DNA of 64,000 nt from NCBI RefSeq assembly GCF_015291625.1, contig NZ_CP030047.1, positions 4,092,001 through 4,156,000 of the forward strand, given 5' to 3'. Each line of letters starts with the position of its first letter. Position 1 is the stretch's first letter. A model generated the notes under the pieces. The model did no database searches, was not told where the DNA came from, and saw nothing but the letters and a program-made list of their open reading frames with translations. A program made the translations under genes and the position numbers. This stretch comes from Bradyrhizobium sp. CCBAU 53421 (GTDB lineage: Bacteria; Pseudomonadota; Alphaproteobacteria; Rhizobiales; Xanthobacteraceae). Of the stretch, positions 17,735-17,890 are shown piece after piece.

Positions 17735-17890
17735 TGTGTCTTGGAAGTCTGTCATGATGAGGGTGGGCGGGAAGCCGTTGGGTCCTTGGCGCTTGACGCC
17801 GTGAGCCGGCTCGGTCTCCCGCCCGTTCCATCTATCAACCTGAACAGTTGCACGAGGCTGCGCCAACAGACCTCGCATCACAGGGACAGG
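17735..17890 (+). ncRNA. Predicted IS110 bridge RNA with target and donor guide loops
   Basis: Loop 1: stem GGGCGGGA (17765-17772) / TCCCGCCC (17817-17824); inside it TGGGTCC (17779-17785) equals the left target, hairpin GGCG-cttga-CGCC (17788-17800), then GAGCCGG (17803-17809), the complement of the right target CCGGCTC. Loop 2: stem CCTG (17839-17842) / CAGG (17887-17890); AACAGTTG (17843-17850) equals the IS right end (18835-18842), hairpin CGAGG/CCTCG (17853-17875), then CACAGG (17879-17884), the complement of core plus left end CCTGTG (17733-17738). This reproduces the target- and donor-loop plan known for IS621. RNA ends are approximate. Confidence 0.8.

Follow-up and report, generated by a model that had tools for sequence, protein, structure and literature searches.

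A well-supported IS110 bridge-RNA element with a CC core in Bradyrhizobium sp. CCBAU 53421

An intact IS110-group insertion sequence, which very probably moves by bridge-RNA-guided recombination, was characterized in the window (the whole 64,000-nucleotide stretch of Bradyrhizobium sp. CCBAU 53421 DNA analysed here). Its parts were assigned positions (Table 1); its target is conserved, CC is duplicated on insertion, guides covary with targets, and the helices of the target-binding loop covary. A sequence-only reading of the locus had proposed the logic of the IS621 bridge RNA with a CC core in place of CT. That proposal is supported by 70 insertion sites, by empty sites, by guide–target covariation, by compensatory helix changes and by the catalytic residues of the recombinase. 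Sequence comparison thus points to a well-supported IS110 bridge-RNA element with a CC core. The kind is an already known one, because the NCBI model that it matches, NF033542, already bears the name 'IS110 family RNA-guided transposase'.

The recombinase gene lies directly 3' of the guides and, by open reading frame and domain searches, encodes an intact IS110 protein of 313 aa. The DEDD_Tnp_IS110 and Transposase_20 domains were both matched (1.5e-17 and 1.9e-18 respectively), and NF033542 was matched with 206 bits (cut-off 140). The closest solved recombinase is that of IS621 (PDB 8wt6; E 2.9e-36, 129 bits, residues 5–307 of 313), followed by ISCro4 (PDB 9t56; E 2.4e-35), a likeness of protein sequence alone. 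Alignment showed that the catalytic D, E, D, D and S of IS621, whose roles are described in the excerpted text of PMC11208158, are kept as aspartates, the glutamate of an EATG motif and a serine. The left end (LE) is long (160 nt) and the right end (RE) beyond the stop codon is short (6 nt; 18837–18842). As in the IS110-type and IS1111 seekRNA elements described in part of PMC11187229, an RNA from a non-coding region would carry segments matching both target strands, and its upstream location is that of the IS110 type. IS1111-type elements have identifiable subterminal inverted repeats and an RNA region downstream of the gene (same source, in part), whereas here the RNA region is upstream; judged from the RE length and the location of the RNA structure in LE, the IS1111-group features are absent. 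ISPpu9, ISPpu10, ISPa11 and ISRm19 belong to the same family and also target REPs, in other hosts, according to the excerpt of PMC1525189, a likeness of family and target.

Table 1. Positions in the window of the element's parts, its target and its predicted bridge RNA.
Feature	Position	Strand	Remark
Left target (LT) TGGGTC, outside the element	17727..17732	+	Each of six positions identical in 67–70 of 70 distinct sites
Left core dinucleotide CC, one copy of the 2-bp duplication	17733..17734	+	Core present once in orthologous empty sites
Left end (LE), non-coding, encoding the predicted bridge RNA	17735..17894	+	
-10-like hexamer CATGAT	17753..17758	+	Arrangement common to all 23 junction types
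Target-binding loop, outer stem, 5' arm GGGCGGG	17765..17771	+	Helix comparison
LTG, TGGGTC plus core-facing C and U	17779..17786	+	U a possible wobble
Target-binding loop, apical hairpin GGCG-CUUGA-CGCC	17788..17800	+	Compensatory pairs
RTG, GAGCCGG	17803..17809	+	GG facing the core
Target-binding loop, handshake base C	17810..17810	+	Expected partner after top-strand exchange: donor G (18842)
Target-binding loop, outer stem, 3' arm CCCGCCC	17818..17824	+	Helix comparison
Donor-binding loop, outer stem, 5' arm CCUG	17839..17842	+	Nearly invariant
LDG, AACAGUUG plus C	17843..17851	+	
Donor-binding loop, apical hairpin CGAGG...CCUCG	17853..17875	+	Nearly invariant
RDG, CACAGG	17879..17884	+	GG facing the core
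Donor-binding loop, handshake bases GA	17885..17886	+	Expected partners after strand exchange: target C at -1 and T at -2
Donor-binding loop, outer stem, 3' arm CAGG	17887..17890	+	Within a purine-rich stretch ending 4 nt before the GTG start
IS110 recombinase, 313 aa, DEDD_Tnp_IS110 and Transposase_20	17895..18836	+	
Right end/left donor AACAGTTG	18835..18842	+	
Right core dinucleotide CC	18843..18844	+	Core present once in orthologous empty sites
Right target GGCTC	18845..18849	+	

All four guides were found exactly where they had first been placed, and they match the real target and the element's own ends. In the target-binding loop the left guide LTG, TGGGTCC (17779–17785), is identical to the left flank (17727–17733), and the right guide RTG is the reverse complement of 18843–18849. 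In the donor-binding loop LDG (17843–17850) is identical to the right end, and RDG is the reverse complement of 17733–17738. The right guides pair with both core bases in both loops, as had been read. The companion claim, that the left guides match the first core base only, holds in the window copy as far as Watson–Crick pairs go; the following LTG base, however, is a U opposite G and may wobble. The LTG base opposite the second core base is C, a full match, in the G241 lineage, in all six lineages of 54–57% identity and in a Sinorhizobium element, and the LDG match to the first core base is gone in five of those six lineages and in Sinorhizobium. The LDG of IS621 pairs with one core base only, as the numbering in the excerpt of PMC11208158 reads. 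The stretch CACAGGGACAGG (17879–17894), comprising RDG, the handshake bases and the closing stem, is purine-rich and lies directly 5' of the GTG start, so that the same bases may serve both donor recognition and ribosome binding; in two other IS110 families CAAGGA stretches were likewise seen, by eye, 5' of the start.

Seven full copies of the element are present in the 9.26-Mb genome, a single contig, and every one lies at TGGGTC-CC-GG; the search for copies at unrelated sites, which would have counted against guided targeting, found none among the seven. In every copy the left junction is TGGGTCCC/TGTG and the right one AACAGTTG/CCGG (slashes mark junctions), and sequence further out differs. 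The shared flank TGGGTC-CC-GGCTC that had been predicted was seen as far as GG in 7/7; selectivity is weak past about +3. Six of the seven targets are one type of palindromic repeat, TATGGGTCCCGG..CCGGGAYGAC, with variable stems (GGGT..ACCC at L002), and the window copy is inserted in a related longer repeat. The repeat is similar to Bradyrhizobium REPs that carry a CGTC tag and a CCA tail (PMC3733652, in part), and IS621 and other members of IS110 are known to target REPs (PMC1525189, in excerpt). Uninterrupted TGGGTCCCGGC occurs 72 times in the genome, as against 6 for the reversed control.

Target conservation was then assessed in 71 copies (own included) with at least 75% protein identity from 16 Bradyrhizobium genomes; the numbers of copies in the other genomes are lower bounds, with at most eight places scored per genome. 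Dropping one copy without a right end (L059) left 70 distinct complete sites, 64 of which carry the complete TGGGTC-CC-GG. On the left, identity was 69 for T at -6, 70 for G at -5, 69 for G at -4, 68 for G at -3, 67 for T at -2 and 69 for C at -1; on the right, G was found in 69 at both +1 and +2, while +3 was C in 46, A in 17, G in 6 and T in 1. Position -7 is mostly A (53) or C (14), whereas LTG has U. Conservation falls off outside -6 to +2, so the selective span coincides with the guides. RTG matches over all seven bases at the window site, as it does at no more than 14 of 60 pooled sites with the same guides. RTG bases past about +3 are weakly selective or not selective, and since only some two to three right-guide bases beyond the core are selective, the seven-base match in the window is partly luck. 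Most of the insertions lie within REP-like repeats of Bradyrhizobium, in the tail and the first arm of the stem.

Orthologous empty sites for two insertions were found in each of two genomes, G036 and G238. They read TGGGTCCC/GGCC and TGGGTCCC/TGCG for L004, where the G238 alignment breaks 28 bases past the junction, and TGGGTTCC/GGCT and TGGGTCCC/TGCT for L005. The core is present once in all four comparisons, so that insertion is scarless and duplicates CC, leaving the short core at both ends. The window locus itself gives no clean empty site because the repeat-bounded stretch is missing entirely from G036 and G098 and is present only in part in G238. Placing the core one base to the left (17732–17733, target TGGGTCCGGC) was ruled out, as TGGGTCCCGGC or a near variant is the sequence found in the empty sites and in the REP copies.

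In relatives, a changed guide goes with a changed target. Among the 70 sites, elements with RTG GATCCGG have A at +3 in 5/6, as against 12/64 in the others (Fisher p = 0.0026), and C at +3 in 0/6 as against 46/64 (p = 0.001); the sites in these tests are not independent, because those of one genome share a repeat pool. Ten further sites of 54–57% identity, from six genomes of three other genera, were added. The LTG of G320 (GGGGTC) and that of G510 (TGGATC) each equal the target at a single site, TGGGCC in G468 equals the target in 3/4 sites, and the RTG GGCGGG of G357 faces CC-CGCC at one site. In the pooled 80 sites from 24 lineages, from which four Sinorhizobium sites were left out, the left target matched 6/6 in 73, and the right target matched 5/5 in 23, 4 in 31 and 3 in 26. 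Guides shuffled among lineages reached the observed match in 3/20,000 permutations on the left and 0/20,000 on the right. The left misfits were L058 (2/6), L263 (4/6) and five others (5/6).

An element on plasmid pMl3 of Sinorhizobium medicae, present in four copies (73% DNA identity over 40% of the query), has the target AGGAAT-CC-AGCC in all four. Its LTG, CGGAAU-CC, pairs with five of six target bases and the core, and its RTG, GUGCUGG, with the core and AGC. In IS621 the positions 3' of the right guides are handshake guides, which pair after strand exchange (PMC11208158, in excerpt). The bases after RDG in the Sinorhizobium element are AU, fitting target -1 T and -2 A, and those in Bradyrhizobium are GA, fitting -1 C and -2 T. 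In the Sinorhizobium element the target guides and handshake bases have thus changed along with the target. The handshake A of G468 misfits a C at target -2 in 3/4 sites, and in fam3 the second handshake base misfits. The base after RTG is C in 32/32 rows and in Sinorhizobium, fitting donor G; the search pattern required this C, and the row register agrees with it.

Both apical hairpins of the sequence-only reading are present, GGCG/CGCC (17788–17791/17797–17800) and CGAGG/CCTCG (17853–17857/17871–17875). Compensation favours the first, in which two pairs vary from C-G to U-A and from G-C to C-G among 32 distinct RNA sequences, whereas the second, being nearly invariant, counts neither for nor against the fold. 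In those 32 RNAs 822/832 helix cells hold standard pairs, counted on a hand-made register, which favours structure and was used because MAFFT misaligned the 3' stem arm of the relatives. Six helix pairs showed compensatory changes, located in the inner stem, outer stem and hairpin of the target loop. One odd case was dropped from this count: the RNA of L257 had been trimmed by two bases to fit the register, and the 'compensatory' label that it gave TBLout1 was left out. Pairs of the donor loop hardly vary and carry little information. Thermodynamic folding gave z scores of -2.8 and -1.65, and the case for the helices rests on comparison, because folding alone shows the donor-binding loop poorly. 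An Rfam search returned no matching family (best E 0.12, opposite strand).

An RNA of roughly 150 nt starting near 17735 had been predicted. The start is probably nearer 17765 and the length about 130 nt, as judged from a promoter-like motif of the element's circle. The RE–LE circle junction has TTGCCT, a 17-nt spacer and CA[TG][GA][AG]T in all 23 junction types, while the spacer sequence changes; a simple ORF filter kept the fam3 proteins, L257 and L175 out of this recombinase and junction alignment. The -35-like TTGCCT consists of the right-end TTG, the core and the first LE base, and so is formed only in the circle and lost on insertion. The -35 matches the promoter consensus at 4/6 positions and the -10 at 3 to 5 of 6. 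In IS621 a promoter across the core of the circle was described by Durrant et al. (PMC11208160, in excerpt). A start near 17765, predicted from the junction motif, would leave the transcript without a 5' stem-loop.

The matches could in principle have arisen by chance, or as a by-product of a palindromic, GC-rich left end. When 17745–17893 was shuffled 100,000 times with dinucleotides preserved, single guides of 6–7 nt did appear in 2–10% of shuffles (LTG, 7 nt, 2435; RTG, 7 nt, 1995; RDG, 6 nt, 9670) and the 9-nt LDG in 65, but three guides occurred together in eight shuffles and all four in none. With the covariation in relatives and the compensatory helix changes, this makes an accidental origin vanishingly improbable. 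Copies might also have spread by homologous recombination or by duplication of flanking repeats, and shared flanks would then be no sign of target choice. The REP repeats are numerous enough for this, with the 72 exact TGGGTCCCGGC counted above; the flanks beyond the target nevertheless differ at 70 distinct sites, and two relatives have uninterrupted orthologous sites with one core. We regard such spread as extremely unlikely.

Recognition of the REP repeat by the recombinase itself, through its sequence or hairpin and with incidental guide-like segments, is a further alternative. An inverted, REP-like arm lies to the right in 65/70 sites, so that target conservation is partly the repeat's own, and the target bases are those conserved in the repeat. 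Four of the five sites without an arm nevertheless still match the target at 9/10 (L143) or 10/10 bases (L051, L147 and L149), although L147 looks like a damaged REP. Only L058 fails (CGAGGT-CC-GC, 2/6 left matches), and the recombinase gene adjoining it has a stop codon. Conservation also falls outside -6 to +2, and guides and targets change together in relatives. Recognition of the repeat without guides is therefore very unlikely, and guided recombination is preferred.

By sequence and covariation, the element would encode a bridge RNA in which one loop is complementary to the target and the other to the donor, and the following course is proposed for its transcription, RNA binding and strand exchange. 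Excision would yield a circle, in which right-end TTG, the CC core and the left end would form the promoter-like TTGCCT-17-CATGAT and drive transcription of the roughly 130-nt RNA. In the target-binding loop LTG would pair with the bottom strand of TGGGTC-CC-GG and RTG with its top strand, and the donor-binding loop would pair with AACAGTTG-CC-TGTG, both as suggested by sequence and covariation. By analogy with IS621 structures, the recombinase would cut next to CC and exchange the top strands, after which the bases that follow the right guides on their 3' side (C; GA) would pair with the swapped strand. The empty sites show the outcome, scarless insertion with CC on each side.

The likeness to IS621, as described in parts of PMC11208160 and PMC11208158, extends to an LE-encoded RNA with two loops and four guides in the same order flanking apical hairpins, a 2-bp core with right guides that pair with both core bases, handshake bases 3' of those guides, a promoter-like motif across the RE–LE junction, a REP target and the catalytic D, E, D, D and S. 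In contrast to IS621, the core is CC rather than CT, RTG and RDG end in GG, and the predicted transcript has no 5' stem-loop before the target-binding loop. All 71 copies have CC on the left, and the 70 complete ones have it on the right as well; it is also found at the ten sites of relatives and in the four Sinorhizobium copies. A CT core with a near-invariant T, seen in IS621 and its orthologues (second core T almost invariant in the excerpt of PMC11208158), is thus absent here; that feature has been described for IS621 and its orthologues rather than for the IS110 family at large.

In Bradyrhizobium, two further IS110 families, 40–43% identical, were read by eye as obeying the same guide rules, but with CT cores and right guides ending in AG. 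One, fam2, has the target TCATC-CT-GAGG, LTG UCAUC-C and RTG CCUCAG; in G013 its LTG has U at -1 where the target has C. The other, fam3 (G139, G040 and G089), has AGCGCCC-CT-CTT, LTG AGCGCCC-C and RTG CAAGAG, and its target is read less surely than that of fam2 because its flanks are long shared repeats. The fam2 loci (L174 in the own genome, 8431905–8433916, and those in G197, G211 and G013) are inserted in another Bradyrhizobium repeat. Since right guides end in GG in the CC clade and in AG in the CT families, the core switch goes with a compensating base in both loops. Its direction, T to C, is assumed from IS621 and the CT-core families.

We lean towards regarding the CC clade (Bradyrhizobium, three related genera and Sinorhizobium) as a compact CC-core bridge recombinase. 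In it the second core base, originally T, would have become C naturally, and both right guides would have changed to match; the handshake bases and the left and right guides would have been reprogrammed repeatedly; the roughly 130-nt RNA would function with no 5' stem-loop; and the RDG and handshake stretch would double as the ribosome-binding region of the recombinase. The clade offers a natural panel for comparing guide changes directly with target changes, core and handshake positions included. A CC-core recombinase with such an RNA would, if active, widen the cores usable for bridge recombination. It would also test why IS621 prefers T at the second position; the EATG motif, with its contacting glycine, is the same here.

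Beside the element, a gene for a 97-aa GIY-YIG nuclease (17369–17662, - strand) lies between inverted REP copies at 17300–17355 (- strand) and at 17727–17734 plus 18843–18892, the right-hand copy being split by the IS110 element. The own genome has seven GIY-YIG places, one of them within a 735-aa frame. Of the other six, four are flanked on either side by inverted palindromic repeats according to score (28 or more); at the window copy, which scores 9 because the insertion sequence splits its repeat, such repeats were recognized by eye; and L205 (score 10) lacks them. Homologous places in 23 other Bradyrhizobium genomes scored 23 or more in 24/25 cases and 14 in L250, the maximum of 92 shifted-window controls being 14; a control pairing arms of different loci (mean 41.9) was uninformative, since flanks and repeats are common to different loci. 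The close homologue occupies 26 places, the window copy among them, and every one belongs to one or other of two synteny groups; much of the constant spacing is therefore explained by descent. G036 and G098 lack the GIY-YIG/REP unit at the window locus. No literature on a REP-associated GIY-YIG nuclease was found by title among the matches listed. In the excerpted text of PMC3733652 the CGTC REPs seem to have no dedicated transposase, and the REP-associated GIY-YIG nuclease would be a candidate for that role.
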